Assembly: GCF_008370495.1 (NCBI RefSeq)
Contig: NZ_VTUX01000002.1
Span: 496,001-560,000, forward strand
Reading direction: 5' to 3'
Length of the DNA stretch: 64,000 nt
Origin: Pseudohalioglobus sediminis
GTDB taxonomy: Bacteria > Pseudomonadota > Gammaproteobacteria > Pseudomonadales > Halieaceae
The notes below the pieces were generated by a model. The model had not been told where the DNA came from, searched no databases, and worked only from the letters and a program-made list of their open reading frames with translations. Numbering within the stretch: position 1 is the first letter of the stretch; each line of letters begins with the position of its first letter. Positions 1 to 13,317 of this stretch are shown here, piece by piece. A program made the position numbers and the translations under genes.

Positions 1-1773
1 GGTGGGCAGGTCTTCGCCGCGCTGTGCGACGAGCTCAGCGCGCAGGGACTCGGTAGCCGCCATGTCCACACTGCCATCACTGGCAATCACCACGCCATAA
101 CGGCGCGCGCCCTCCGCGGTTACCAGCTTGCGTTCCACGTCGGCGCGCACCAGCTCGGGGTCGCGAGCGTAGGGGTCGCCCCAACCGCCGCCACCCCAGG
201 TATTGAAGTACAGCAGGTCACCGGTCTTTACCTTGATACCCTCGACCTTGGCCGGCAGCCACTCCTCGGAGCCGTCGACGCGCACCAGACGCTTGGTTGA
301 GCGCATGCCGGTCTCACCGCCGAGCACACCCCAGGGGTAGGTCAGCCAGCGCTCGTCGTGTATACCGATCTCGCCGTCACAGAGGAAACGGTAGGCTACC
401 GAGAGGCCGTTTCCGCCGCGGTGCAGGCCGGCGCCGCCGGAATCGGGAATGGTCTCATAACGCTCGATACGCAATGGAAAATAGGACTCGATAAATTCAT
501 TGGGCACGTTGGTAAAGCCCGGCCACAGCGAGTGACCATCGGGCCCATCGCCCACCGGACGCCCGGGGATACCACCAAAGCCGATCTGGAACAGCTGGAA
601 CCACTCACCCTGCTGGTCATAACCGGAATAGAACAGGTGCGGTGAATCCGAAAAGCCTGCCGCATTGAGCATTTGTTCCGGTGCTCCCATACCCAGGAGC
701 GCACCGAGCACGTCGAAGATCCGCCCCAGGGCGTGGGTCCGCCCCGACAGGGCGGCGGGAAAGTTGGGTTTCAGCAGCGTGCCCGCGGGAATGCGCACAT
801 CCACCAGGTCATAGAAACCGTCATTGAAGACGATCTGCGGGTCCACCACGTTGATGGTGAAGGAGCCGAAGAACATCTTGAACATATCTTCGTTGAGGAA
901 AAAGTTAACCGAACTCTGGGCCTGCGGATCGGTGCCTTCAAAATCAAAAATGGCCTTGTCGCCCTCGCGCCACATCTTGCAGGCGATCTTGTAGGGGCCC
1001 ATACCCATGCCATCGTCGCAGATATAATCTTCGAAGTAGCGCGGCTCTTCCGGCACCACCATGTTGATGATGGCCGTCATCGCGGCCTTGTTGCGGTCCA
1101 GCATGATGCCCATTGTGGTGTGCAGCACATCATCGGAAAAGCGCTCGGTAAGCTCAAGCACCCGCCTGGCGGCGGTATTACACGCGGCCACCAGCGCATT
1201 CAGGTCGAAGCGGTTCCATTGCTGGGTACGCACGTTGTGCAGTATCAGTTCCAACACATCGGCTTGCAGTTCACCCTTCTTGTACAGCTTGATCGGCGGG
1301 ATACGGATACCTTCCTGGTAGATCGTGGTCGCTTCGATGGGAATGGAACCCGGCACCATGCCGCCGTTGTCTGACATGTGGCCGAACATGGCCGTCCAGG
1401 CAATATGGCGGCCGTTCTTGAATACGGGTTTCAGCACCAGCCAGTCCGGCAGGTGCGAAACCGCTGCGTTACACATATAGGGATCGTTGGTGAGAATCAT
1501 GTCACCCTCTTCGATCTCGCCGTCGAACACTTCCAGGAAGGGCCCGATGAAGGAGCCGAACTGACCCACGACCATCTTGCCCTCGACGTTGGCGATCATC
1601 GGGAAACAGTCGCCCTGCTCGCGAATACCCGGCGACATGGCGGTGCGAAACAGCACCGCGTCCATTTCCTCGCGCGCATTGCGCAGGGCGTTCTCGATGA
1701 TGTCGACGGTCACGCCCTCCACCGCAACGGTTTGCAGGGGCTGGTCATTGGTTTGCAGAATGGTTGCTGGCAT
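1..1773 (-). CDS. Hydantoinase B/oxoprolinase family protein (HyuB), 3' end cut by window
   Basis: Beta subunit of the hydantoinase/oxoprolinase/acetophenone-carboxylase superfamily, which works with HyuA in ATP-dependent opening of cyclic amides or ATP-dependent carboxylation. The frame reads 591 codons from ATG without a stop to the left edge, so it is nearly complete for a family of about 520-650 residues. Family landmarks near the N-terminus are visible: FRTAMSPGIREQGD, VGQFGSFIGPF and the NDPYMCNAAVSHLPDW stretch. The ATG has an AGGGGA site about 7 nt upstream that overlaps the hyuA stop, so translation is probably coupled. The true substrate (hydantoin, lactam, oxoproline or ketone) cannot be told from sequence. 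Confidence 0.9.
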   Translation of the reverse strand, partial: MPATILQTNDQPLQTVAVEGVTVDIIENALRNAREEMDAVLFRTAMSPGIREQGDCFPMIANVEGKMVVGQFGSFIGPFLEVFDGEIEEGDMILTNDPYMCNAAVSHLPDWLVLKPVFKNGRHIAWTAMFGHMSDNGGMVPGSIPIEATTIYQEGIRIPPIKLYKKGELQADVLELILHNVRTQQWNRFDLNALVAACNTAARRVLELTERFSDDVLHTTMGIMLDRNKAAMTAIINMVVPEEPRYFEDYICDDGMGMGPYKIACKMWREGDKAIFDFEGTDPQAQSSVNFFLNEDMFKMFFGSFTINVVDPQIVFNDGFYDLVDVRIPAGTLLKPNFPAALSGRTHALGRIFDVLGALLGMGAPEQMLNAAGFSDSPHLFYSGYDQQGEWFQLFQIGFGGIPGRPVGDGPDGHSLWPGFTNVPNEFIESYFPLRIERYETIPDSGGAGLHRGGNGLSVAYRFLCDGEIGIHDERWLTYPWGVLGGETGMRSTKRLVRVDGSEEWLPAKVEGIKVKTGDLLYFNTWGGGGWGDPYARDPELVRADVERKLVTAEGARRYGVVIASDGSVDMAATESLRAELVAQRGEDLPT

Positions 1774-1784
1774 TGTCGTATCCC

Positions 1785-3845
1785 CTAAGCTGCCGGTTCG
1801 ATGAGCAGGTTGCCCACGGCGTCCACACGGGCGCGGTGGCCCGGCAGGACCACGGTGGTTGAGTCCATCTCGCTGACGATAGCCGGCCCCGGCACCTCCA
1901 GCCCCTCGTGCAGTTTGTTGCGATCGTAGATGATCGCGTCGTGGTAGCTGCCCTCGTAATAAAAACGGGTGTCGTGCAACTTGCAGTCGTCCAGCGATGT
2001 CCCGGCCTGGCCCATCGTCAGCTCGGCAAGGGCCCTGGCCCTGGCCTTGACCACTGCACGAATCATGAGGATTTCGTGGCCGTCGCCCAGCTTGAAGGTG
2101 AACAACTGCTCATGCTCGGCGTCGAACTCGTCGGTCAATCGGGCAATGCCGCGCTCGCGCAGTTCATCCTCGGTGAATTCCACCGTGATCTGGAAAGCCT
2201 GCCCGGCATAACGCAGGTCGGCCTGGAAGGTAACCTCGTGCTCGTCAGTGGCGATGCCATCTGCCACCAGCGACTCACCGGCGCGGCTCTGCAGCTCCAG
2301 CAGGTCCTGCAGCAACTGCTCGGTGGATATGTCTTCGGCCATGGTGATATAGGTGCGGGTGGCCTCGTCGCGGACCTGGGTGGTGGCATCCCCGTAGGCG
2401 CACAGCACCCCCGGACCCGGCGGCACAATCACCGGCCAGGCATCGGTGAGGATACCCAGGGCATTGGCGTGCAGCGGGCCGGCGCCACCGAATCCCACCA
2501 GGGCGAAATCCCGTGGGTCGTAGCCCTGCTCCACCGAGACCAGCCGCAAGGCCCCGAACATGGCCTCGTTGACCACCTTGATAATGCCCTCGGCGGCGTC
2601 TTCCAGCTCGATGCCCATGGCGTCGGCGGTTTTCTGCACCGCCGCGACGGCAGCATCGCGGTTGATCTCCATTGCCCCGCCCAGTTGCACGTCGGACGGC
2701 AGGTAGCCCAGCACCACGTTGGCGTCACAGACCGTGGGTTCTTCGCCACCCTTCATGTAGCAGGCCGGTCCAGGCACGGCGCCGGCAGACTCGGGCCCGA
2801 CCCGCAGTGCGCGTGTAAGCTCCGGCACGAAGGCGATGGAACCGCCACCGGCGCCGACAGTGCGCACATCCACGGAAGGCGCACGCACCTTGACATCACC
2901 CACGAAGGTTTCCCGGCGCACCCGCGCGCGGCCGTTCTGGATCAAGGCCACGTCAGTAGACGTACCGCCCATGTCGAAGGTGAGAATGTCATTGAAGCCC
3001 GCGCGACTGCAGAAATACATAGCTCCGGCAACCCCGCCTGCAGGGCCTGACATCAGCAAGTTCACGGGCGAGTCGGAAGCAGCGCGGCCGGAGGCGAGCC
3101 CACCGTCGGAGCGCAGTATGGATAACTGGGTCTCGGGGCCAAGCTGCTCTGCGAGGGATTGCTGCAGGTTGTGCACATACTTCGCCACTTCCGGGCGCAC
3201 GTAGGAATTCACCACCGTGGTCTCGGTGCGCTCATACTCCTGCATTTCCGGGACCACATCACTGGAAATGGAGATGGGCACCTCGCCGAATATCTCGCCG
3301 GCGATCCGGGCGGCGCGACGTTCGTGTTCGCCATTGATATAGGCGTTGATGAAGCAGATGGTCAGCGCTTCGATACCACCCCGGGCGCGCAGGCTCTCGA
3401 GGTCGGCGCGCAGCTGTTGTTCGTCGAGCTCGGTCACCACCTTGCCATCGGCGCCGATACGTTCCGAGGCGCCTATGGTCAGTTCCAGCGGCGCCAGCAG
3501 CGGCTTCTTGACGAACGACACCCAGCCGCCGAGGCCGCCGGGACAGAAGGAGCGCGCTACCTGCAGGGTGTGCTCATACCCCGCCGTAGTCACCAGGCCG
3601 ACGCGTGCGCCACGCCCGGTGAGCACCGCATTGGTAGCGACCGTGGTGCCGTGCATGACCCGATGCACCTGCGCCGGGTTGATGCCGGATTCGTCGCAGA
3701 TGCGGGCGATACCGTTCAGCACGCCGATGGAGGAATCCTCAGGGGTAGAGGGCACCTTGGCCGTGTGGGTTGTACCGGATTCCTCGTTGATCAGCAGGAG
3801 GTCGGTAAAAGTACCGCCTACGTCCACGCCCAGCCTGTAACTCAT
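1785..3845 (-). CDS. Hydantoinase A/oxoprolinase family protein (HyuA)
   Basis: ATP-using alpha subunit of 686 residues with the ASKHA fold. The first phosphate motif DVGGTFTD is at residues 8-15 and a second, FDMGGTSTD, lies near residue 290. Both are typical of N-methylhydantoinase, 5-oxoprolinase and acetophenone carboxylase subunits, which phosphorylate the substrate or its intermediate. It sits 11 nt upstream of hyuB and 63 nt downstream of an HMG-CoA-lyase-family gene, which suggests one operon. Length and both nucleotide motifs are intact, so it should be active. The lyase, CoA-transferases and cupin nearby argue for a catabolic role beyond simple hydantoin hydrolysis, but the substrate is unknown. 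Confidence 0.92.
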   Translation of the reverse strand: MSYRLGVDVGGTFTDLLLINEESGTTHTAKVPSTPEDSSIGVLNGIARICDESGINPAQVHRVMHGTTVATNAVLTGRGARVGLVTTAGYEHTLQVARSFCPGGLGGWVSFVKKPLLAPLELTIGASERIGADGKVVTELDEQQLRADLESLRARGGIEALTICFINAYINGEHERRAARIAGEIFGEVPISISSDVVPEMQEYERTETTVVNSYVRPEVAKYVHNLQQSLAEQLGPETQLSILRSDGGLASGRAASDSPVNLLMSGPAGGVAGAMYFCSRAGFNDILTFDMGGTSTDVALIQNGRARVRRETFVGDVKVRAPSVDVRTVGAGGGSIAFVPELTRALRVGPESAGAVPGPACYMKGGEEPTVCDANVVLGYLPSDVQLGGAMEINRDAAVAAVQKTADAMGIELEDAAEGIIKVVNEAMFGALRLVSVEQGYDPRDFALVGFGGAGPLHANALGILTDAWPVIVPPGPGVLCAYGDATTQVRDEATRTYITMAEDISTEQLLQDLLELQSRAGESLVADGIATDEHEVTFQADLRYAGQAFQITVEFTEDELRERGIARLTDEFDAEHEQLFTFKLGDGHEILMIRAVVKARARALAELTMGQAGTSLDDCKLHDTRFYYEGSYHDAIIYDRNKLHEGLEVPGPAIVSEMDSTTVVLPGHRARVDAVGNLLIEPAA

Positions 3846-3908
3846 TATTCTCTCCCGTCTGTGGCGTTCTCATACCCGCGCCGCAAAAGGCACGGAGCGA
3901 GGCGCCAG

Positions 3909-4820
3909 TTATAGTTCTTGCTGTTTCGCCAACCAGGGGCCCAGCCAGGCTTTGGCGCGACCTCCGGGCGCCGTGCCCGTCAGGTTTTCCGCCAGGTCCG
4001 AGGCACGCAGCAGCGCATCGAGATCGATCCCGGTGTGCACGCCCATCTGCTCCAGCATCATTATCACGTCTTCACTGGCCACATTGCCACTGGCACCGGG
4101 CGCGAAGGGGCAGCCGCCGAGCCCGCCTATGGAACCGTCAAAGTGATAGATACCCGATTCCAGCGCGGCGAACACGTTGGCCACGCCCATGGCGCGTGTG
4201 TCATGGAAATGGCAGCCGATCTGCGCGGCGCCATGCGCCTCGACCAGTTCACGGGTCAAGGCACGCACCTGCAGCGGATTGGCCGCCCCGATGGTATCGG
4301 CAAGCACCAGTTGCCGGATACCGGAATCGATGAACCGGGCAACGATATCGCGCACGATGCCCGGGTCGGTGGGGCCGTCAAAGGGACAGCAGAACGCCGT
4401 AGCGATGGCGGCAACCACCTCGATGCCATCATTCGCGGCCATGTCGAGAATGTCGCGCGTGGCCTGCTCCGCCTCGGCGATACTCATATTGACATTCTTC
4501 TGCGCCATGCCTTCGCTGGCATAAAGCACCATATTGACCGTCTTCACGCCCGCGTCCCGGGCCAGTTCATAGCCCTTGCGGTTGGGTATCAGCGCACTGT
4601 AGTGCACACCGTCATCCCCAGGCAGGCGCGCAACCAGTTCCCCGGTGCCCGCCATTGCCGGTACCGCTTTCGGGGACACGAAGCTACCCACTTCGATATG
4701 GCTTACCCCCGCCGCAGCGACAGCGGCAATGAGCGATAGTCGCTCATCCACCGAGAGGATACGCGGCTGATTCTGCAAACCGTCACGGGGACCTACATCT
4801 GTAAAAACAACTTTATCCAT
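3909..4820 (-). CDS. Hydroxymethylglutaryl-CoA lyase family enzyme
   Basis: A 303-residue TIM-barrel acyl-CoA lyase of the DRE-TIM family, which cleaves a 3-hydroxyacyl-CoA such as HMG-CoA to acetyl-CoA and a keto acid. The N-terminal DVGPRDGLQN motif carries the catalytic acid and metal ligands. HFHDT around residues 204-208 gives the metal-binding histidines. The active-site cysteine loop GGLGGCPFAPGASGN is present with Cys237. All hallmark residues are intact. It lies between the cupin gene (8 nt upstream) and hyuA, not with leucine-degradation genes, so it may act on a related 3-hydroxy-dicarboxyl-CoA made by the neighbouring CoA-transferases. Confidence 0.9.
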   Translation of the reverse strand: MDKVVFTDVGPRDGLQNQPRILSVDERLSLIAAVAAAGVSHIEVGSFVSPKAVPAMAGTGELVARLPGDDGVHYSALIPNRKGYELARDAGVKTVNMVLYASEGMAQKNVNMSIAEAEQATRDILDMAANDGIEVVAAIATAFCCPFDGPTDPGIVRDIVARFIDSGIRQLVLADTIGAANPLQVRALTRELVEAHGAAQIGCHFHDTRAMGVANVFAALESGIYHFDGSIGGLGGCPFAPGASGNVASEDVIMMLEQMGVHTGIDLDALLRASDLAENLTGTAPGGRAKAWLGPWLAKQQEL

Positions 4821-4828
4821 AATCTGTC

Positions 4829-5863
4829 TTAGTGGTGGTGATGGTGATCATTGCCATCGCCGTGATGGTGGTGATGGTGCTCGCTGTGCTCGTCGTGATG
4901 GTGGTGCCCATGCCAGTGGTCGTGGGTTTTACCATCGCTCTTGTACCGGGCAATGTCGTGCCCCTCCTCATCACCCCGGCGCACCATGGTCTGCTCGAAG
5001 TCCTCAGGACCGTGGGGATGGTTGTGATCCTTACTGAAGGCCCATTTGTACAGCAGCGGGTCGCGCTGGTAAATACGCGCCTCGGAGCGGTTGGCGTTGG
5101 CCACTGGTGTCGACCACGGGTTGTAGTGGAAGTGGTTGAACAATTTGGAATCGGTACGTCCCAGGGCGATGCAGCCGTACTCGGAGGCGAAGGCGCCGTG
5201 ATTGATATAGGCGGGGCGCCAGAAGTAGCCGCCGGTTGGAACGTCGCCGAACTGCATCATCCAGGACGTGCCCCAGAGGTGATAGCCCTCTTCCGCGCAA
5301 TCGTGATAGGAGATGTTGTCCTGGTAAAAATTGGGTGTCATGCAGTACAGGAACGTCATCGCGTGGGAGATCGGGTTGTAATTCAACAGCTTGATCATGC
5401 AACCGGCGGCCACTGAAGGCTTGGTGACGTTACCCGGGGCCCAGGCGAGGTCCATGAACGAGTCCACATCGTGATACAAGTCGACCTGGCCCAGCGGATG
5501 GTGCTCGGTGGATTCCTCATGACTGGGAGCGCCGGTGTTATACATGACCAGCGCCAGGCAGCCCTGCTCCGAGGTCATCTCGGGCATGGCATAGCCGGCG
5601 GGCACGTAGCAATACTGGCCTTTGCGCCAGACCTTGTCGCCAACTTTCATCTCACCTTCGATGATGATCATCTCCCACTCAGACCAGGAGAAGCCGGGAG
5701 TGCGCCGGTATCCCGCGTCGAACTGGCAGGTCATGGAACAGGCGCCGGAGTCGCCATCCAGGCTGAGCATCTTGTAGCGCATACCCCCGGCCAGGTTTGG
5801 CAGCATCAGTTTCTTGAAAGCCTCGTCGCGGTCGCAAAATGGTTCAATATGTGGGCGTGCCAT
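4829..5863 (-). CDS. Bicupin-like protein with histidine-rich C-terminal tail
   Basis: A 344-residue protein whose N-terminal part reads as a cupin (conserved-barrel signature WEMIIIEGEMKVGDKVW, then GQYCYVPAGY). A second barrel-like half around residues 150-260 contains GYHLWG and HGAFASEYG. The last 32 residues contain 19 histidines mixed with Asp, Gly and Glu, resembling the metal-storage tails of HypB, UreE or CooJ. An AGGAGA ribosome site lies 7 nt before the ATG. Cupins commonly bind Fe, Mn or Ni, and the tail suggests metal buffering or delivery. The reaction is unknown; dioxygenase, isomerase or lyase are all possible. A His-loop metal permease is encoded four genes upstream in the same cluster. 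Confidence 0.8.
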   Translation of the reverse strand: MARPHIEPFCDRDEAFKKLMLPNLAGGMRYKMLSLDGDSGACSMTCQFDAGYRRTPGFSWSEWEMIIIEGEMKVGDKVWRKGQYCYVPAGYAMPEMTSEQGCLALVMYNTGAPSHEESTEHHPLGQVDLYHDVDSFMDLAWAPGNVTKPSVAAGCMIKLLNYNPISHAMTFLYCMTPNFYQDNISYHDCAEEGYHLWGTSWMMQFGDVPTGGYFWRPAYINHGAFASEYGCIALGRTDSKLFNHFHYNPWSTPVANANRSEARIYQRDPLLYKWAFSKDHNHPHGPEDFEQTMVRRGDEEGHDIARYKSDGKTHDHWHGHHHHDEHSEHHHHHHGDGNDHHHHH

Positions 5864-5883
5864 GTCGTCTCTCCTTATTATTG

Positions 5884-6195
5884 TCAGTCGCGATCTTTCA
5901 GGGCCGGATCGCTGTCCACGCCGTGCTCCCAGACGACCCGATCCTCACAACCCTCCGGCTTCACCGGCAGTTGGCCAGGTTGCAGCTTGATTTTGTCGTC
6001 CCCATCCATATTGAAACCCATGGTGGTGATCCGGTCGAAAAACTCCTGGTACCAGAGCTCGCGCTGCCCCGCGAGGTCTTCCATCTCCCGTTCAATCCTG
6101 GCGAAGCGCACTTCCTGCGCCGCGATCTCTTCCTTGATCCATGCCTTTACCTCTTCCGGCACGTCGTGCTCGATATACTTGTTCAGGAACGTCAT
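5884..6195 (-). CDS. Unrecognised 103-residue protein
   Basis: I do not recognise a family. The start was chosen at the ATG preceded by GGAGG about 7 nt upstream; a longer frame reaches 6255 but would overlap the CoA-transferase stop region. The product is acidic, soluble and rich in charged helix. Residues about 14-48 look like an amphipathic or short coiled-coil helix (EEVKAWIKEEI through QRELWYQEFF), and the C-terminal third is low in structure, with Pro, Gly and Asp. No signal peptide or membrane segment is seen. It sits 20 nt upstream of the cupin gene and 25 nt downstream of a CoA-transferase gene, so it is probably co-transcribed and may be a small subunit or partner of one of them. 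Confidence 0.75.
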   Translation of the reverse strand: MTFLNKYIEHDVPEEVKAWIKEEIAAQEVRFARIEREMEDLAGQRELWYQEFFDRITTMGFNMDGDDKIKLQPGQLPVKPEGCEDRVVWEHGVDSDPALKDRD

Positions 6196-6220
6196 TGCGT
6201 AGCCTCCACAGCTCGTCTGG

Positions 6221-7426
6221 TTATACTTTTTCCAGCATGGCCGCTCCGTCAGCAACCAGGCTGTCGATGTCTTCCTGTGCGTAACCAGCTTCGGCCAGCA
6301 CCTCTGCGGTGTTTTCTCCCAGGCGCGGCGCGTGTCGACGTATCGTAGGTTGTGTACGCGACATATTCATCGGTGGACTGCTCAGGCGCAGCTGTCCTTC
6401 CGTCGGATGCGCCATCTGCTGCCAGAAACCGGTTGCCACCAGGTGCGGGTCATCGATGAGGTCATCCAGCGAGTTCACCACCATGGTGGGCACCTTGGTA
6501 TCGCCCAGCAGGTCAAGCCACTCCTGCCGGCTGCGCCCGGCAATGATCTCGCCAGTCACGCGATAGGATTCGTTGATATTTTTCAGGCGCGTCGCCATGT
6601 CGATAAAACGCGCGTCGGTGGCCAGTTCCGGGCGCCCGGCCAGCTCGCAGAAGGTGAGCCAGTGATTGTCCCAGTAGGGCAACACCGCGAGGTACTTGCC
6701 ATCCTTACAGCGATAGGGTTTGCGGTGCTCAGCCATCAGGCGCACATAACCCGCCTCGCCCAGGGGCGGTTCGAAGCTCTGGCCCCAGAGGTGCTCGGTC
6801 ATCACGAAGCTGACCATGGATTCGTACATCGGCACTTCGATCTCCTGCCCCTCGCCAGTGCGCAGCTTGTAGAACAACGCCGCCAGCACCGATTGCACCA
6901 CGAACATGGCGGTGGTCTTGTCCGCGATAATAGTGGGCATGTAGCGGGGTTCACCCAGCACCTTCTCCGCCAGCGCAGCGGCACCACTGGCGGCCTGAAT
7001 CGAATCGTCCAGCGCACCCTTGTCGCCATAGGGCCCGCGCTTGCTGTAACCGTAAGTGGCGCAATAGATAATCTCGGGATTGACGGTTCTGACCGCGTCG
7101 TAATCCAGGCCCAGCCGCGCCATCGCCTGCGGGCGGAAGTTGTGCACCACCACATCGGCGCTGCTGATGATGTCCAGCGCGGCCTGCCTGCCCCGCGGCG
7201 ACTTCAGGTCCAGCGCCACCGAGCGCTTGTTGCGGTTGCAGCCGAGGTACATGGAGCACATGTCGCTGTGATTGCGATGCGGACCGAGGTGGCGGTTGGT
7301 GTCACCGCCGGGGGGCTCGATCTTGATCACATCCGCCCCCAGGTCGCCGAGCATCTGGCAGGCATAGGGTCCCAGCACCACGCTGGTCATTTCCACGATA
7401 CGAATGCCTTCCAGTGGCGCGGTCAT
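6221..7426 (-). CDS. CaiB/BaiF CoA-transferase family protein (first of two)
   Basis: A 401-residue class III CoA-transferase, a family that moves CoA between acids through an aspartyl-CoA anhydride. The N-terminal block VEMTSVVLGPYACQMLGDLGAD, the KIEPPGGDTNR segment and LDLKSPRGR are typical. The catalytic aspartate is Asp169, in the IIADKTTAM motif. The start overlaps the stop of the upstream amidohydrolase gene as ATGA, which indicates translational coupling. Together with the lyase further down it could activate and then cleave a branched hydroxy acid. Substrate specificity cannot be read from sequence in this family; an alpha-methylacyl-CoA racemase-like role is the main alternative. 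Confidence 0.9.
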   Translation of the reverse strand: MTAPLEGIRIVEMTSVVLGPYACQMLGDLGADVIKIEPPGGDTNRHLGPHRNHSDMCSMYLGCNRNKRSVALDLKSPRGRQAALDIISSADVVVHNFRPQAMARLGLDYDAVRTVNPEIIYCATYGYSKRGPYGDKGALDDSIQAASGAAALAEKVLGEPRYMPTIIADKTTAMFVVQSVLAALFYKLRTGEGQEIEVPMYESMVSFVMTEHLWGQSFEPPLGEAGYVRLMAEHRKPYRCKDGKYLAVLPYWDNHWLTFCELAGRPELATDARFIDMATRLKNINESYRVTGEIIAGRSRQEWLDLLGDTKVPTMVVNSLDDLIDDPHLVATGFWQQMAHPTEGQLRLSSPPMNMSRTQPTIRRHAPRLGENTAEVLAEAGYAQEDIDSLVADGAAMLEKV

Positions 7427-8295
7427 CGGATGGCGCCCTCGAGCCCGTAGATGCGAATGACGTTGTCGCGCATGAACTTGCGACGCACCTCTGGCTTGAG
7501 GCCGAGATCATCAATCTCCTGCACGGTGCGCTCGAAACGTAACACCGGGAAATCGGTGCCGAAGATCACCTTGTCCTGTCCATAAGAATTGATAAAGCGC
7601 ACCACGCTCTCCGGCCAGTACCTGGGGCTGTGTGCATCGGTGGCGATGTACACGTTGTCGTGTTTCCACGCCATGGCGATCATTTCATCGTGCCAGGGAA
7701 TACCCACGTGCGAACCGATCAACTTCAGCTCCGGCAGGTCGCAGGCGATGTCGTCCAGGTAAATCGGGCGACCGACGCTGCGACAGCGTTGCTCCTTTGA
7801 ATACAGCAAAGACTGGCCCACCTGCATCTGTACCGGGATATCGAGTTCAATGCACTTGGCGTAGAAGGGATAGTACTTGGCGTGGTTCGCCGGCAACTCG
7901 TACCAGTGCGGGTACAGATGCGCGCCGATAAAGCCCATGTTGCGCACGGCATCTTCCAGCGCGCGTACGCCGTCCATGCCCTGGTACGGGTCGATTCCGA
8001 CGAGGCCGAAGAAGCGATCGGGGTAGCTCGCCACAGCCCTGGCTACCACCTCCGGCGGCATATGGTAACTGCCGGGCAGGCCGGGGCGACCGGACTTGGC
8101 TGCGACCAGGAAGGCATATTCGATATCGGCACTGTCCATGCCCTCGAGCATCTGCTCCAGGCTGATGCCGGCACTGTCATGCTTACCCTTGACCTTGCCC
8201 ACGAAAAACTCATCGGTCCAGCCGGGACGGTGCGACAGTGCCTCCTCGGTCCAGATATTGACGACGGCGTCGATTGCCTTGTAGTCGACTGGCAT
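7423..8295 (-). CDS. Amidohydrolase-2 family protein with degenerate metal site
   Basis: A 290-residue TIM-barrel protein of the amidohydrolase-2 (ACMSD-like) family, whose members hydrolyse or non-oxidatively decarboxylate organic acids. The start was set at the ATG with AGGGAAG just upstream, giving MPVDYKAIDAV; a longer frame reaches 8337 but overlaps the next gene. Ligands normally found in the family are partly missing. The HxH pair after strand 1 is V11/N13, and the strand-5 histidine appears as Gln158 (VQMQVG). His196 (GSHVG) and Asp248 (GTDFP) remain. The protein may therefore bind metal differently or not at all. It overlaps the downstream CoA-transferase start by four bases. Confidence 0.85.
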   Translation of the reverse strand: MPVDYKAIDAVVNIWTEEALSHRPGWTDEFFVGKVKGKHDSAGISLEQMLEGMDSADIEYAFLVAAKSGRPGLPGSYHMPPEVVARAVASYPDRFFGLVGIDPYQGMDGVRALEDAVRNMGFIGAHLYPHWYELPANHAKYYPFYAKCIELDIPVQMQVGQSLLYSKEQRCRSVGRPIYLDDIACDLPELKLIGSHVGIPWHDEMIAMAWKHDNVYIATDAHSPRYWPESVVRFINSYGQDKVIFGTDFPVLRFERTVQEIDDLGLKPEVRRKFMRDNVIRIYGLEGAIR

Positions 8296-8303
8296 ATACT
8301 TCC

Positions 8304-9020
8304 CTATAACCCCAGAACCGCGATGGACAGACCACACATCATGATGGTGCAGCCGGCGATAGCTTCACTGTAGCGTTCCAATGCCGGCAGCCGCACGGAT
8401 TGCAAACCCCACACAGACAGGGCTACCGCCGCCAGCATGGTCAGTATCGTGACCAACGCGAACACACCCGTCACCGCCACCACCCCTGCCACGCTCTCCT
8501 GGGCGGCCGGGAACATGAGAATCGGGATCAGCGGTTCACAGGGGCCCAGCACGAAGACAATAAAAATCGCCCATCCGGCAACTGAGCGACGGCCGCCCTC
8601 CTCCACACCATGGGCGTGGGCATGCTCGTGGCCGTGGCTGTGATCGTGGTAGTGGCGCAGTTCGCCGTGGCTGTGCCAGTGGGCGTGGCGGTGCCGCCGG
8701 TAGCCCTGGCGCAGGCCCCAGGCCATCCACACAAGCCCTACGGAAACCAGCGCCCACGCAGCCAGGTCACCGCGAAAGCCCTCTATAGCCTCGAGCGCGC
8801 CGAGCTGGATGCTGGCGTAGATCCCGACCATACCCAGCACCACGGAGCCGACGATGTGCCCGGCACCGCACAACAGCGTGGTGCGCAGCGCCCTGGCGAC
8901 GGACCATTCCCGACTCTTTGCCAGCGCAACGAAAGGCAAGTAATGATCCGGGCCCATCAGGGTATGGACAAAGGCAATCGTTGCGGCGGTGCCACACAGC
9001 ACCCAGATTTCCGGGGTCAT
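8304..9020 (-). CDS. UreH/NicO-like metal permease with histidine-rich loop
   Basis: A 238-residue inner-membrane protein with about six hydrophobic segments. The first carries H19-TLMGPDH, an HxxxxxDH motif like that of UreH/NicO-type nickel or cobalt transporters. A later segment has LGPCEPLIPILMFPA, also seen in that family. Between them a cytoplasmic or periplasmic loop (about residues 110-137) holds 13 histidines, as expected for metal capture. AGGAGG lies about 8 nt before the ATG. It sits 8 nt upstream of the amidohydrolase start, inside the catabolic cluster and not near urease or hydrogenase genes. That suggests supply of Ni, Co or another divalent metal to an enzyme encoded here. 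The direction of transport is not known. Confidence 0.8.
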   Translation of the reverse strand: MTPEIWVLCGTAATIAFVHTLMGPDHYLPFVALAKSREWSVARALRTTLLCGAGHIVGSVVLGMVGIYASIQLGALEAIEGFRGDLAAWALVSVGLVWMAWGLRQGYRRHRHAHWHSHGELRHYHDHSHGHEHAHAHGVEEGGRRSVAGWAIFIVFVLGPCEPLIPILMFPAAQESVAGVVAVTGVFALVTILTMLAAVALSVWGLQSVRLPALERYSEAIAGCTIMMCGLSIAVLGL

Positions 9021-9101
9021 CGACCTGCCCTCCTGATGACAATTTGTCTCATTGTTATTTAAATATGTCTTTTCAAAGTGTAGGCAGCGCGTCGCGCGCC
9101 A

Positions 9102-10304
9102 TCAACCGGCAATCACGCCGTCCTCGCGCAGCGCTGCCAGCGTCGCCTCGTCCAGCTTGAGAATCTCCCTGAACACCTCGTCGTTGTGGCTGCCAATCTC
9201 GCCGCCGGGCCAGTCGGTGCGCCCGGGCGTACCCTGCATTTTCGGCAGGATGGCTGGTATTTTCAGCGCTTCGCCATTGATCTCCACCGTCTCGAACATG
9301 CCACGCGCGTTGTAGTGCTCGTCGTTGACCATGTCCTCCACGCTGTAGATGGGGCCCACCGGCACCCGCGCCTCTTCCAGCACATCAATAATATGTCGCG
9401 AGGAATGGGCGGCGCACCAGTCGGCCAGCGCCCTGTCGATCTCCGCCTCGTGAATAACGCGTCCGGCGTTGTCCGCCATCTCCGGGTTCTCGGCCATATC
9501 GGAACGGCCGGCCACCGTCATCAGGCGCTTGAAGATGGAATCGCCATTGCCGCCGATGACCACGTACTTGCCGTCGTCACACTTGTAGGTATTGGTGGGC
9601 ACGATGCCGGTTACCGTGGTGCCCGATGGCTCACGTATGACGCCGGCGCCGTCGTACTCAGGCACGATGCCTTCCATGAGGTTGAAGACAGATTCGTAGA
9701 GCGCCACATCGATAACCTGACCGGCCCCGCCTGGCCTGGCACGCTGGATAATCGCCAGCGCAATGCCAAGGGCCGCATGAATTGCCGACAACGTGTCGCC
9801 CATGCTGATATTGGTCCGGATCGGCGGCTTACCCGGTTCGCCGTTGATGTAACGGAATCCACCGAAGCCCTCGGTTACCGAGGCATACCCGGGCTTGCTG
9901 GCGTAGGGGCCGTCCTGACCGTAGCCGGAAATGCGCGCATAGATCAGCCCCGGGTTATCCGCCCGCAACGTATCTGGCCCCAGCCCCCACTTTTCCATCA
10001 TCCCGGGGCGAAAGTTTTCCACTACCACGTCCGCTGTCCTGATCAGGTCGCCGGCCAGTTCACGACCACGATCTGACTTGAGGTCCAGGGTCACACTCTT
10101 CTTGTTGCGTCCGACGCTGCGCCACCAGAAAGATGTGCCGTCCTTGAGCAGGCGCCAGCCGCGAATCGGGTCGCCGCCGGGGGGCTCGACCTTGATCACC
10201 TCGGCACCGAAATAGGCGAGGATGGTGCCGGTAAACGGCCCGGCCAGCAGCTGGCCCATCTCGATCACCCTGATACCTTCCAGCGGTCTTGCGTTGTCTG
10301 TCAT
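9102..10304 (-). CDS. CaiB/BaiF CoA-transferase family protein (second)
   Basis: A 400-residue class III CoA-transferase and the first intact gene of the minus-strand cluster. It has the family block IEMGQLLAGPFTGTILAYFG, VEPPGGDPIRGW and LDLKSDRGR, with the catalytic aspartate at about residue 170 in the SMGDTLSAIH motif. It belongs to a different subfamily from the CoA-transferase at 6221-7426, because the glycine-loop region reads GFGGFRYING. The two are therefore probably not redundant and may carry out successive CoA transfers or act on different acids. The gap of about 80 nt to the metal permease gene holds no other gene. Confidence 0.9.
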   Translation of the reverse strand: MTDNARPLEGIRVIEMGQLLAGPFTGTILAYFGAEVIKVEPPGGDPIRGWRLLKDGTSFWWRSVGRNKKSVTLDLKSDRGRELAGDLIRTADVVVENFRPGMMEKWGLGPDTLRADNPGLIYARISGYGQDGPYASKPGYASVTEGFGGFRYINGEPGKPPIRTNISMGDTLSAIHAALGIALAIIQRARPGGAGQVIDVALYESVFNLMEGIVPEYDGAGVIREPSGTTVTGIVPTNTYKCDDGKYVVIGGNGDSIFKRLMTVAGRSDMAENPEMADNAGRVIHEAEIDRALADWCAAHSSRHIIDVLEEARVPVGPIYSVEDMVNDEHYNARGMFETVEINGEALKIPAILPKMQGTPGRTDWPGGEIGSHNDEVFREILKLDEATLAALREDGVIAG

Positions 10305-10744: not shown

Positions 10745-12226
10745 ATGAACACTGGCGTCGTACTCACCACGCTTGTCATCTACAAGGCAATGCTCATACT
10801 AATCGGCCTCTGGGCCCAGCGCAGGGTGCGCTCGGAGCAGGATTTCTTCCTGGCCGGACGGCAACTGGGGCCCTGGGTTGCCGCCATCAGTTACTCCGCC
10901 AGCGCCGCCTCCGCCTGGACCCTGCTGGGCATGAGCGGCCTGGCGTTTACACTGGGACTGGCCAGCGTATGGGTCGCCTGTGGCGCGGTTCTGGGCTGCG
11001 CCTTCTCCTGGTTTGCCATCGCTCCGCGGGTGATGCGCATCAGCGCTTCCCAGCCGATGCTGTCCGCCACGGAATTTATCGCCCTGGGCACCAGCGGTCG
11101 CACCCGCCTGCACCTCATCCGCCTGGTGTCGGCTATTATCCTGTTCTGCTTCGTCGTTTACGTGGCGTCCCAGTTCCAGGGCGCCGGCAATACCTTCGCC
11201 GCGACTTTTGCCATGAGCAGCGCAGAGAGCATTGTGCTGGGAGGCATAATCATTCTGTTTTATACGCTGCTCGGCGGCTTCTGGGCGGTGAGCGTCACCG
11301 ACACCATTCAGGGCCTGCTGATGCTGCTGACAGCGGTGCTGTTGCCGGTAGCGGCAGTGACGCATTTTGGCGGACCACAGGCATTCTACGCCGCTCTGGC
11401 ACAAAGTAATGATGCGGTGTTCATGTCATGGACAGGCAACGCCGCCGGGCTGACCGCCCTGGGCATGCTGCTGGGCTCGCTGGCCGTAGGCATATCGTCC
11501 CTCGGCCAGCCCCACCTGGTAGCGCGTTTCATGGCACTGCGGGACGCCCGCGCACTGCGCCAGGGGCAGATTATCGCCACACTGTGGTACAGCGTGGTTT
11601 TCTTCGGCATGGTGTTGGTGGGACTCAGCGGTCGCCTGCTGGTTCCGGAGCTCGATGCCAGCGAGCAGGTGTTTTTCGCCGTCAATGATGCCCTGTTTCC
11701 TTCCGCCCTCGGTGCCGTGCTACTGGCCGCAGTGCTCTCCGCCATCATGTCTACGGCCGACAGCATGCTGCTCGTTTGCGGCACTACCGTGGCCCACGAC
11801 CTGGGCATGAATGCTCGCCATCCCCGGCGCGCCCTGCTGATCTCGCGCATCGTCATCGCGATCATTTCCCTGCTCGCAATCGCCGTGGCGATTTACCTGC
11901 CGGCAACTATTTTTGAGCGCGTGCTGTTTGCCTGGGTTGCCATCGGCTCGGCGCTGGGGCCGATCATCCTCTGTCGCGCCTTCAGCCTGCAGCCCGCCGC
12001 CAACAGGGTACTGCCAGCGATCGCCCTGGGCTTTATTGCGGCGGTGGGCTTCTACCTGCTACCCAACACGCCCGGAGATATCGCCGAGCGCACTGCGCCC
12101 TTCGCACTCGGCCTGCTGGTGCTCCTGTCGGGGGGCGCCCAGCGTAGGGGCGCCCGGCTAAGGGGCGCACGGCTCAGTGGTGCGGGCAGTGGTGGTGTCA
12201 ACGATCAGTTGTCGACGCGCGACTGA
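10745..12226 (+). CDS. Sodium:solute symporter family (PutP-like) transporter
   Basis: A 493-residue SSS-family inner-membrane transporter that would couple Na+ entry to uptake of a small organic solute. About 13 hydrophobic helices are visible. N-terminal motifs DFFLAGRQLGPW and SYSASAASAWTLLGMSG match the family, as does the helix containing LSAIMSTADSMLLV. The ATG at MNTGVVLTT was preferred to a frame open from 10424, because the extra residues are hydrophilic, Pro-rich and overlap the decayed gene. The 3' end overlaps the convergent glycoside hydrolase gene by 22 bp. Proline, pantothenate, acetate or a sugar are all possible substrates; the hydrolase next door weakly favours a sugar. Confidence 0.88.
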   Translation: MNTGVVLTTLVIYKAMLILIGLWAQRRVRSEQDFFLAGRQLGPWVAAISYSASAASAWTLLGMSGLAFTLGLASVWVACGAVLGCAFSWFAIAPRVMRISASQPMLSATEFIALGTSGRTRLHLIRLVSAIILFCFVVYVASQFQGAGNTFAATFAMSSAESIVLGGIIILFYTLLGGFWAVSVTDTIQGLLMLLTAVLLPVAAVTHFGGPQAFYAALAQSNDAVFMSWTGNAAGLTALGMLLGSLAVGISSLGQPHLVARFMALRDARALRQGQIIATLWYSVVFFGMVLVGLSGRLLVPELDASEQVFFAVNDALFPSALGAVLLAAVLSAIMSTADSMLLVCGTTVAHDLGMNARHPRRALLISRIVIAIISLLAIAVAIYLPATIFERVLFAWVAIGSALGPIILCRAFSLQPAANRVLPAIALGFIAAVGFYLLPNTPGDIAERTAPFALGLLVLLSGGAQRRGARLRGARLSGAGSGGVNDQLSTRD

Positions 12227-13317
12227 GCACCCATGTCGCCACCTGAATTGCTATTGAGCCCTTCCGCCCTGGCCAGTTCCTGCTCCCGGGCACAGTAGGG
12301 TGTGCCATCAGCGTGCAACAGATCGTGGAACCAGGGCTCCGGCTCGGTGGTGGTGCCCGGAGGATTGCTCCAGCCCCAGCGAGTATTGGTCTTGCCGGCA
12401 ACCAGTCCCCAGCAATAGCTGCTCACGCCATGCTGCCGAAACACGGGCAGGTGCGTTGCAAAGGCGCTTTGCGGCCGCGACAGCCACTCCGTGCATACCA
12501 GGGGGCGGCCATGAAGGGCGAGGTCGCTAATCTGGCGTTCGAGATCCGTCGCATCCTCGTAATGGTGAAAACTGATCACATCGCTCTCCGCCACCAGCAC
12601 CTGGTTCAGGCGGGGGAAATTCCAGTACACCGGCGCGGTGAGCGGCTGGGACGGTGCCTCGCTGCGCGCCCAGGCGAAGGCCTCAATCATCAATCGCTCC
12701 GCAGGGCCGCGCGTGAGGATCTGGCCGAGGTAGTGCCGGGCGTTTGCAGGCAGACGCTGATACCAGGGGGCATGGATGTTCTGCATAAAGCGATTGCAGA
12801 CCTCGTTGTAGATGTCCCACAGGATCACCCTGGCGTCATTGGCAAAGGCTTTTACCACTGAGCGCACATAGACCTCCAGCCTGCTCCACTGCGCGCGATC
12901 ACGCAGCGCCGCCGTGCCCGGAGACATCGCCCAGCGGGAATTGTGCAAGCCCGGGACGGGCGCCGGCTGCGGCCCCAGGCGAGCAAAGTCGTGCCAACAG
13001 TCATCGAAAAACACCAGTACTGTGCTGATACCGTGAGCGGCCGCGATGGTCAAAAAGGTGTCGATGCGCTGCAGAAAACCCTCCCCGTCCTGCTCCCAGA
13101 GCAGGTCGTGGAGATACACGCGCACGCTGTTGAGACCGAAACTCGCCGCCCAGCCCAGTTCGCGCTCTATCACATCGCTGTTGAAGCTGTCCGCCTGCCA
13201 CATCTCCAACTGGTTCACGGCATACCCCGGAATATAGTTACATCCCAGTTGCCGTCCGACCCGCTCGCGCCATGCCCACGCCTTTGCCGCCGGCCACACT
13301 CCTCGCGTTTCCCGCAC
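12205..13317 (-). CDS. GH5-like glycoside hydrolase (cellulase/1,4-beta-xylanase-like TIM barrel)
   Basis: A 370-residue protein with a (beta/alpha)8 glycosidase layout and no signal peptide, so it probably acts on oligosaccharides inside the cell. The acid/base glutamate is in ILWDIYNEVCNRF and the likely nucleophile glutamate is in LVCTEWLSRP. The YCWGLVAGKTNTRWGW and EPWFHDLLHADGTPY motifs are seen in GH5/GH2-clan proteins often annotated as xylanases. The start is GTG with AAGGAGG only about 4 nt upstream. A near-perfect 28-bp palindrome lies directly upstream, suggesting dedicated repression. The convergent symporter may import its substrate. The exact family and bond specificity are uncertain. 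Confidence 0.8.
   Translation of the reverse strand: MRETRGVWPAAKAWAWRERVGRQLGCNYIPGYAVNQLEMWQADSFNSDVIERELGWAASFGLNSVRVYLHDLLWEQDGEGFLQRIDTFLTIAAAHGISTVLVFFDDCWHDFARLGPQPAPVPGLHNSRWAMSPGTAALRDRAQWSRLEVYVRSVVKAFANDARVILWDIYNEVCNRFMQNIHAPWYQRLPANARHYLGQILTRGPAERLMIEAFAWARSEAPSQPLTAPVYWNFPRLNQVLVAESDVISFHHYEDATDLERQISDLALHGRPLVCTEWLSRPQSAFATHLPVFRQHGVSSYCWGLVAGKTNTRWGWSNPPGTTTEPEPWFHDLLHADGTPYCAREQELARAEGLNSNSGGDMGAQSRVDN

Follow-up and report, generated by a model that had tools for sequence, protein, structure and literature searches.

A Gene Island in Pseudohalioglobus sediminis with Relatives of the Plant Reductase RCCR and a Probable Role in Tetrapyrrole Breakdown

Introduction

The PaO/phyllobilin pathway of plants breaks down chlorophyll by means of chlorophyllase, Mg-dechelatase, PaO and RCCR, the last being a reductase of the opened chlorophyll. 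One paper reports RCCR from land plants and from a small number of cyanobacteria (PMC2716323), and another uses it as the outgroup of the bilin reductases (PMC10151467). Chlorophyll is made and degraded at about 10^12 kg a year, and its reported breakdown products include hematinic acid along with further mono- and dipyrroles; maleimides and hematinic acid are known from tetrapyrrole breakdown (PMC7318184). No description of a bacterial gene cluster for chlorophyll breakdown turned up in searches of the open-licence PMC literature. This paper concerns a gene island in Pseudohalioglobus sediminis, one end of which lies in a 64,000-nucleotide stretch of DNA (termed the window; genome G000, contig C16, positions 496001–560000). 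The island carries relatives of RCCR, and a role in the digestion of chlorophyll-like pigments is therefore probable.

Other described systems share parts with this island. Anaerobic nicotinate fermentation has a dimethylmaleate branch in which a LeuCD-type hydratase and a lyase of the PEP-mutase/ICL family act on 2,3-dialkylmaleate and 2,3-dialkylmalate; unlike that branch, the island adds CoA transferases, HMG-CoA-lyase-family enzymes, amidases and oxygenases. The aerobic nicotinate pathway has an nicCDFE maleamate branch that is resembled by adjacent island genes for an FAD monooxygenase, an alpha/beta-hydrolase, an isochorismatase-family amidase and a maleate-isomerase-like protein, but the island carries RCCR, HyuAB and LeuCD and no pyridine ring-opening genes were recognised in it. 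The ATP-dependent lactamases (caprolactamase CapAB and HyuAB) and PuuE allantoinase, a polysaccharide-deacetylase-like cyclic amidohydrolase, also have relatives here.

Results

An earlier, sequence-only reading of the window described nine tandem minus-strand genes as a metal-linked catabolic cluster and left the substrate open. All nine are present in the order described: HyuB, HyuA, HMGL1, cupin, p103, CaiB1, AH2, NicO-like and CaiB2. They do not form a bounded unit, since both the HyuB gene (by 98 bases) and the gene unit continue beyond the start of the window. Gene calling over C16:444001–519000 shows the nine-gene run to be one end of a larger island (C16:446–506 kb). This consists of 55 predicted genes from ~446.3 to ~506.3 kb, roughly 60 kb, with 46 genes to the left of HyuB, and it reaches about 50 kb further left of the window start. 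Enzymes encoded there (an RCCR homologue, Rieske oxygenases, PuuE-like, maleamate-amidase-like and maleate-isomerase-like proteins and a second LeuCD) mean that the substrate need not stay open-ended. The island is read here, with somewhat better than even confidence, as a locus by which a tetrapyrrole, most likely in the form of chlorophyll breakdown products, would be catabolised aerobically. The window genes are best read as a CoA-dependent branch of this route that would handle lactams and ring fragments.

RCCR1 (C16:476891–477712) matches PF06405 with 57.3 bits (cut-off 24.9, E = 1.8e-15), and on its own it matches the solved Arabidopsis RCCR, 3agb, with E = 3e-8. A 16-sequence RCCR1 profile compared with the PDB gives plant RCCR first (E = 4.5e-22, positions 33–255 of 269); the next matches are the bilin reductases HY2, PEBB and PebA (3e-5 to 1.3e-3, HY2 at 3.2e-5). 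D291, with E154 an active-site residue of Arabidopsis RCCR, corresponds to D238, an aspartate invariant in 16/16 sequences (numbering by hand from the chain offset). RCCR2 is a divergent relative, linked to RCCR by profile comparison only (hhalign 96.9%, E = 1.6e-10), and misses the PF06405 cut-off (10.7 bits, E = 0.29).

PF06405 is rare. It was found in 1/398 genomes of the phylum draw (the present genome), 2/274 of the class draw, 10/140 of the family and 0/14 controls. Both class-draw genomes fall among the 3/274 that have a close cupin, and 5/49 genomes reached by way of cupin loci have a match above the cut-off. A second RCCR-family clade, 32%–34% identical to RCCR1, is found in the same genomes (L148:9758 in G320, L143:8778 in G300, L151:10323 in G401 and L140:17414–18226 in G407). 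In the three to four stretches seen, its genes have an SDR gene, an MFS gene or both beside them.

Twelve genomes carry an RCCR1-clade gene (at least ~47% identical to the P. sediminis copy), and the surroundings of RCCR1 were compared in them. Within 7.7 kb of RCCR1 there is a Rieske gene in 12/12, and x322 is within 3.2 kb, also in 12/12. The alpha/beta-hydrolase gene abhCHL, a putative esterase gene, is within 2.1 kb in 10/12; it is 13 kb away in P. sediminis itself and was not found in G300. RCCR2 is within 10 kb in 7/12, several of the stretches being truncated. In G306, G301, G399 and G401, RCCR1 is 5.5–10.3 kb from pda1. The RCCR1 module is kept in G429 (reached from L048, Pseudohongiella) and G437 (from L057, a gammaproteobacterial metagenome-assembled genome) with about 50% RCCR1 identity, and G448 (the same as G244) has a 32% relative together with RCCR2, NIT, ACAD, ALDH and MI homologues. 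An RCCR homologue near a Rieske protein and an alpha/beta-hydrolase, as in the plant pathway, recurs in 10–12 of the 12 genomes. In G301 a short Rieske match, possibly a remnant, adjoins RCCR1 (L136:19252) and the full Rieske gene is 7.7 kb away; the comparison left out matches below 60 bits, which dropped this short piece.

RiesA and RiesB both carry CxH...CxxH and NxxDxxHxxxxH, the motifs of Rieske non-haem iron oxygenases. The nearest solved relatives of the Rieske proteins are SxtDIOX/SxtT and NdmA.

Further island enzymes suit the later steps of such a route. PDA1 and PDA2 (genes pda1 and pda2) have the PuuE allantoinase 3cl6 among their best solved or curated matches (E = 6.5e-22 and 2.8e-22) but fail the PuuE model cut-off (102.6 and 105.3 against 424.6 bits), and they are encoded by a tandem pair adjoining an isochorismatase-family gene. 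They are related to PuuE and are not PuuE itself; the obvious guess is that they hydrolyse a cyclic amide or imide. The maleamate-amidase-like ICH1 and ICH2 have the cysteine motif TSGCxRAT of isochorismatase-like amidases, and the maleate-isomerase-like MI1 and MI2 have the motif PSTNT. ICH1 belongs to the isochorismatase family, close to amide hydrolases, and MI1 and MI2 to the arylmalonate-decarboxylase/EutA group. The genes for the FAD monooxygenase, ICH1, the alpha/beta-hydrolase abh1 and MI1 are side by side (L112:1–3334, C16:463839–467334).

The island LeuC passes NF009116 and NF004016 and misses TIGR00170 (537.5 vs 560.25), and LeuD passes TIGR00171. This LeuC is an extra copy; another, 52% identical, is on C11. 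HMGL2 passes NF004283 (279.2 bits, cut-off 246), and the GxGGCP signature is present in both HMGL1 and HMGL2. The methylisocitrate-lyase-like PEPM is below its cut-off (264.8 against 354.4 bits). Together these enzymes would fit a conversion of imide to maleamate, dialkylmaleate, dialkylmalate, CoA ester, and finally pyruvate plus acyl-CoA. A search of the open-licence PMC literature for enzymes of dimethylmaleate or maleimide yielded no useful paper.

The nine window genes are tightly spaced, as had been described. From HyuB rightward the gaps are 11, 63, 8, 20 and 25 nt as far as CaiB1, followed by a 4-nt overlap of CaiB1 with AH2 and gaps of 8 nt (AH2 to NicO) and 81 nt (NicO to CaiB2). The labels hydantoinase, HMG-CoA lyase, CaiB, amidohydrolase and cupin hold in Pfam; the NicO/UreH label is weak.

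HyuB (window positions 1–1773, minus strand as for all nine; full gene C16:495902–497773, 623 aa) is a hydantoinase B/oxoprolinase subunit (PF02538, E = 3.6e-143). HyuA (1785–3845) matches PF01968, PF05378 and PF19278. The nearest models of the two are CapA and CapB of caprolactamase, yet both are far under the equivalog cut-off of 1000: HyuA with 549.8 bits (caprolactamase alpha, its nearest NCBIfam) and HyuB with 202.1 bits (scanned minus its last 32 residues). HyuA is less near to acetophenone carboxylase gamma, with 302.3 bits against a cut-off of 1500. Since the caprolactamase match is the stronger, neither cut-off being reached, lactam opening fits HyuAB better than the carboxylation that had been offered beside it. 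The carboxylase reading was set aside, and an ATP-dependent opening of lactams is proposed for HyuAB. The remainder of the route envisaged earlier, i.e. a conserved unit with ring or lactam opening, CoA loading and cleavage by a lyase, remains plausible.

HMGL1 (3909–4820) exceeds the NF004283 cut-off of 246 with 322.3 bits and has GLGGCP at position 233; cleavage of alkylmalyl-CoA-type thioesters is proposed for it. CaiB1 (6221–7426; PF02515, E = 2.6e-111) and CaiB2 (9102–10304; PF02515, E = 1.6e-119), the latter at the right end of the run, are class III CoA-transferases and 33% identical to each other. CaiB2 relatives (75%–84%) adjoin the island in G306, G301, G399 and G401. AH2 (7423–8295) is an amidohydrolase_2 protein (PF04909, E = 8.5e-45) whose nearest solved relative, 3irs, is uncharacterised. 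It is degenerate, as had been noticed: the HxH motif of strand beta-1 is absent from the window protein, while H126, H196 and D248 show conservation of 95% or more across an alignment of 43 sequences. The NicO/UreH-like membrane protein (8304–9020) has a His-rich loop, and all its family matches are below cut-off. The supply of a metal by this protein was set aside for that reason and because it is found in 32/80 loci.

The cupin (4829–5863) is a two-domain protein of the Cupin_7/DUF4437 type (PF12973, E = 1e-11; PF14499, E = 2e-11). Six of the eight proteins in alignment A1 have the His-rich tail reported for it; the remaining two had been trimmed to the matched part. In the second domain H187, E191, E192 and H222 are invariant across an alignment of 51 sequences, 24%–28% relatives among them, a pattern compatible with a metal site. 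The p103 protein (5884–6195, 103 aa) has no Pfam or NCBIfam match, in agreement with its earlier description as an unknown protein. Its AlphaFold2 model (mean predicted local distance difference test score 82.8, predicted template modelling score 0.58) suggests a helical hairpin plus a beta hairpin. An oxidative or ring-modifying role of cupin and p103 is suggested with low confidence.

Conservation of the window genes was examined in cupin loci of named genomes, namely the best 80 of the 200 that had been confirmed, with flanks of 10 kb at most; many are cut by contig ends. p103 is present in 73/80 and stands directly before the cupin gene on the same strand in 73/73. The other counts are AH2 43, CaiB1 32, NicO 32, LeuC 25, LeuD 23, CaiB3 23, gntR 20, x240 18, voc 18, HMGL2 18, pda1 17, HyuA 14, ICH1 12, ICH2 11, HyuB 11, CaiB2 10, pda2 10 and HMGL1 5, where the HMGL1/HMGL2 and CaiB labels are best-hit labels that may swap. 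Conservation of the neighbourhood reaches far past this genome, in these loci and in relatives, so that confinement to one genome, the finding that was to speak against the cluster, does not apply. L090, L107 and L108 each have two successive cupin matches, either next to p103 or lacking it, which suggests tandem cupin duplication, and G434 has two p103-cupin loci on different contigs (L053, L055).

Co-occurrence was counted in 140 genomes of the family, with orthologue sets defined by chosen cut-offs (cupin E < 1e-180; pda1 and HMGL2 E < 1e-100). RCCR genomes have the HMGL2 orthologue in 10/10 cases (p = 1.6e-7) and pda1 in 9/10 (p = 2.8e-6). The close cupin occurs with pda1 in 10/10 (p = 5e-8) and with HMGL2 in 9/10. 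pda1 orthologues are present in 30 genomes and HMGL2 in 33, and pda1 occurs with HMGL2 in 26/30. Because the genomes are related, these p-values overstate independence; those of other draws (8e-5, 7e-5) mix differently drawn sets and are not relied on. In G301, G399, G401 and G320 a 26%–29% cupin is in place beside the lower genes.

The remaining island genes, read leftward from HyuB, are x240, voc, LeuC, LeuD, CaiB3, HMGL2, a GntR-type regulator, pda2, pda1 and amidase ICH2; RiesA, PEPM, a GST, a Crp-type regulator, x322, RCCR1, x204, an SDR and an MFS transporter; a fused nitrilase, RCCR2, an acyl-CoA-dehydrogenase-like protein, aldehyde dehydrogenase, alpha/beta-hydrolase, amidase ICH1 and FAD monooxygenase; and MI1 and MI2, RiesB beside abhCHL, TonB-type receptors and a second fused nitrilase. 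The names TonB1, aceE, DUF2141, sbp, lipo and SSS were given by eye, without a family scan, and x204, x322, p141, x223 and x235 have no Pfam family above cut-off. The island also encodes a pair of long proteins, 45% identical to each other (L132:11472–13175 and L112:6938–8623), in which carbon-nitrogen hydrolase domains stand in tandem; one of the pair was family-scanned.

The left edge of the island is not sharp. At the right edge a sodium:solute-symporter-type transporter, named by reading (10745–12226, plus strand), is divergent from CaiB2; homologues (70%–78%) are found at the same edge in G306, G301 and G401, and it is a possible uptake gene. A GH5-type-looking protein, also by reading (12205–13317), is between the island and chromosomal housekeeping genes. 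Beyond it is ordinary-looking chromosome with genes named by eye as a sigma factor, nlpD-like and eno, and an rpoS-like gene is beside the island edge in G301 too. Relatives retain the island or some of its modules, with 70%–88% identity for many of the genes. Recent acquisition judged by base composition was set aside, the GC fraction of the island (0.613) being that of the rest of the window (0.613). Promoter and terminator scans gave counts close to the shuffle mean.

Discussion

The proposed route would begin with uptake through the TonB receptors and transporters of the island. AbhCHL would remove an ester, RiesA and RiesB would oxygenate the macrocycle and help to open it, and RCCR1 and RCCR2 would reduce the resulting open chain, in parallel to PaO and RCCR of plants. 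Oxidative steps by the FAD monooxygenase, the acyl-CoA-dehydrogenase-like flavoprotein, aldehyde dehydrogenases, and cupin with p103 may then yield single-ring imides and lactams, e.g. hematinic acid and methyl-ethyl-maleimide. HyuAB would open lactams with ATP and PDA1 and PDA2 would open imides to maleamates, from which ICH1 and ICH2 would release ammonia, with MI1 and MI2 acting as isomerases. The second LeuCD would hydrate the dialkylmaleate, CaiB1–3 would load CoA, and HMGL1 and HMGL2, or PEPM in the case of free acids, would cleave the product to pyruvate and acyl-CoA. On paper, hematinic acid would give pyruvate and glutarate, and ethyl-methyl-maleimide pyruvate and butyrate. Gene content, order, conservation, co-occurrence and family assignments are observed; we infer the substrate, the order of steps and every reaction. 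Within this scheme a tetrapyrrole substrate is held with moderate confidence, and the choice of chlorophyll rather than haem or a bilin is tentative, a little short of even.

Several findings weigh against the scheme. The position of Arabidopsis E154 is an alanine in RCCR1, although that of D291 holds the invariant aspartate. The PaO family was found in 0/14 Rieske proteins at E ≤ 1, and all 14 have VanA_C, unlike the plant oxygenase. The P. sediminis AbhCHL misses the cut-off of Chlorophyllase PF07224 (16.2 against 26 bits); this family appears at E ≤ 1 in 8/10 AbhCHL proteins (best E = 3.6e-4) and PETase in 9/10, AbhCHL being slightly nearer PETase. Staygreen Mg-dechelatase (PF12638) was found in 0/140 family genomes, though also in 0/14 controls, so that this search is without a positive control. 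No ferredoxin turned up among the family-scanned island proteins, which are part of the island set. RCCR1 and RCCR2 are present in 0/80 cupin loci within the flanks stated, and 43/49 cupin genomes have no PF06405 match (50 of the 80 loci were covered, in 49 genomes; G413 is the same place as G306, and G448 as G244). RCCR and the close cupin occur together in only 2/10 family genomes (p = 0.15), and a coupling of these two themselves was set aside. Since PaO membership fails, chlorophyllase membership fails on score, Staygreen was not found in that uncontrolled search and most carriers of the module are without a recognised RCCR, chlorophyll is a favourite and not a result.

The scarcity of recognised RCCR among cupin genomes implies that the window module also serves bacteria without one; these may use small pyrrolic debris, or their substrate may differ. 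The same scarcity, the separation of RCCR from the close cupin, and a lower gene set that is often without RCCR (pda1 in 30/140 genomes, RCCR in 10/140) would suit two pathways lying together by chance or through shared regulation. The RCCR/Rieske/esterase module would then serve tetrapyrroles, and the window module with LeuCD, CaiB3, HMGL2, PDA1/2 and ICH2 another N-heterocycle (an alkyl imide, lactam or ureide met by many bacteria). This is unlikely, given that RCCR genomes nearly always hold pda1 and without exception HMGL2, and that RCCR1 is so near pda1 in four relatives. The split between RCCR and the close cupin, with the substitution of a 26%–29% cupin, is read as one shared back end with two front modules, both of which are present here and in G306.

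A bilin substrate, haem- or phycobilin-derived, with RCCR1 and RCCR2 as bilin reductases, is likewise improbable. In its favour, RCCR belongs to the same superfamily as the bilin reductases, the profile of RCCR1 extends to HY2, PEBB and PebA, the Rieske proteins are outside the PaO family, and PMC10151467 describes active bilin reductases in non-photosynthetic bacteria. Among solved structures, however, RCCR is matched far better than any other (4.5e-22 against 3.2e-5), and Rieske and esterase genes near RCCR1 suit chlorophyll better. Less probable still is a nicotinate-type catabolism of substituted pyridines, in which the FAD monooxygenase, Abh1, ICH1 and MI1 would parallel nicC, nicD, nicF and nicE. 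The four are neighbours in the island, and the family placements of ICH1, MI1 and MI2 agree with it, but RCCR1, RCCR2, HyuAB, PDA1/2, LeuCD and HMGL are left unexplained and the scanned proteins included no recognisable NicX or NicAB.

Under the tetrapyrrole reading, the island may at its fullest accomplish complete aerobic mineralisation of chlorophyll, with a plant-like Rieske/RCCR/esterase front end and a pyrrole-ring back end that leads by way of imide, maleamate, dialkylmaleate and dialkylmalyl-CoA to pyruvate and acyl-CoA and recovers all four nitrogens, and the back end alone would let many other bacteria live on pyrrolic debris; this larger proposal is put forward with more reserve. 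The island makes the question of chlorophyll degradation testable at the enzyme level, and the pathway would give functions to the DUF4437 cupins, the p103 family and x322.

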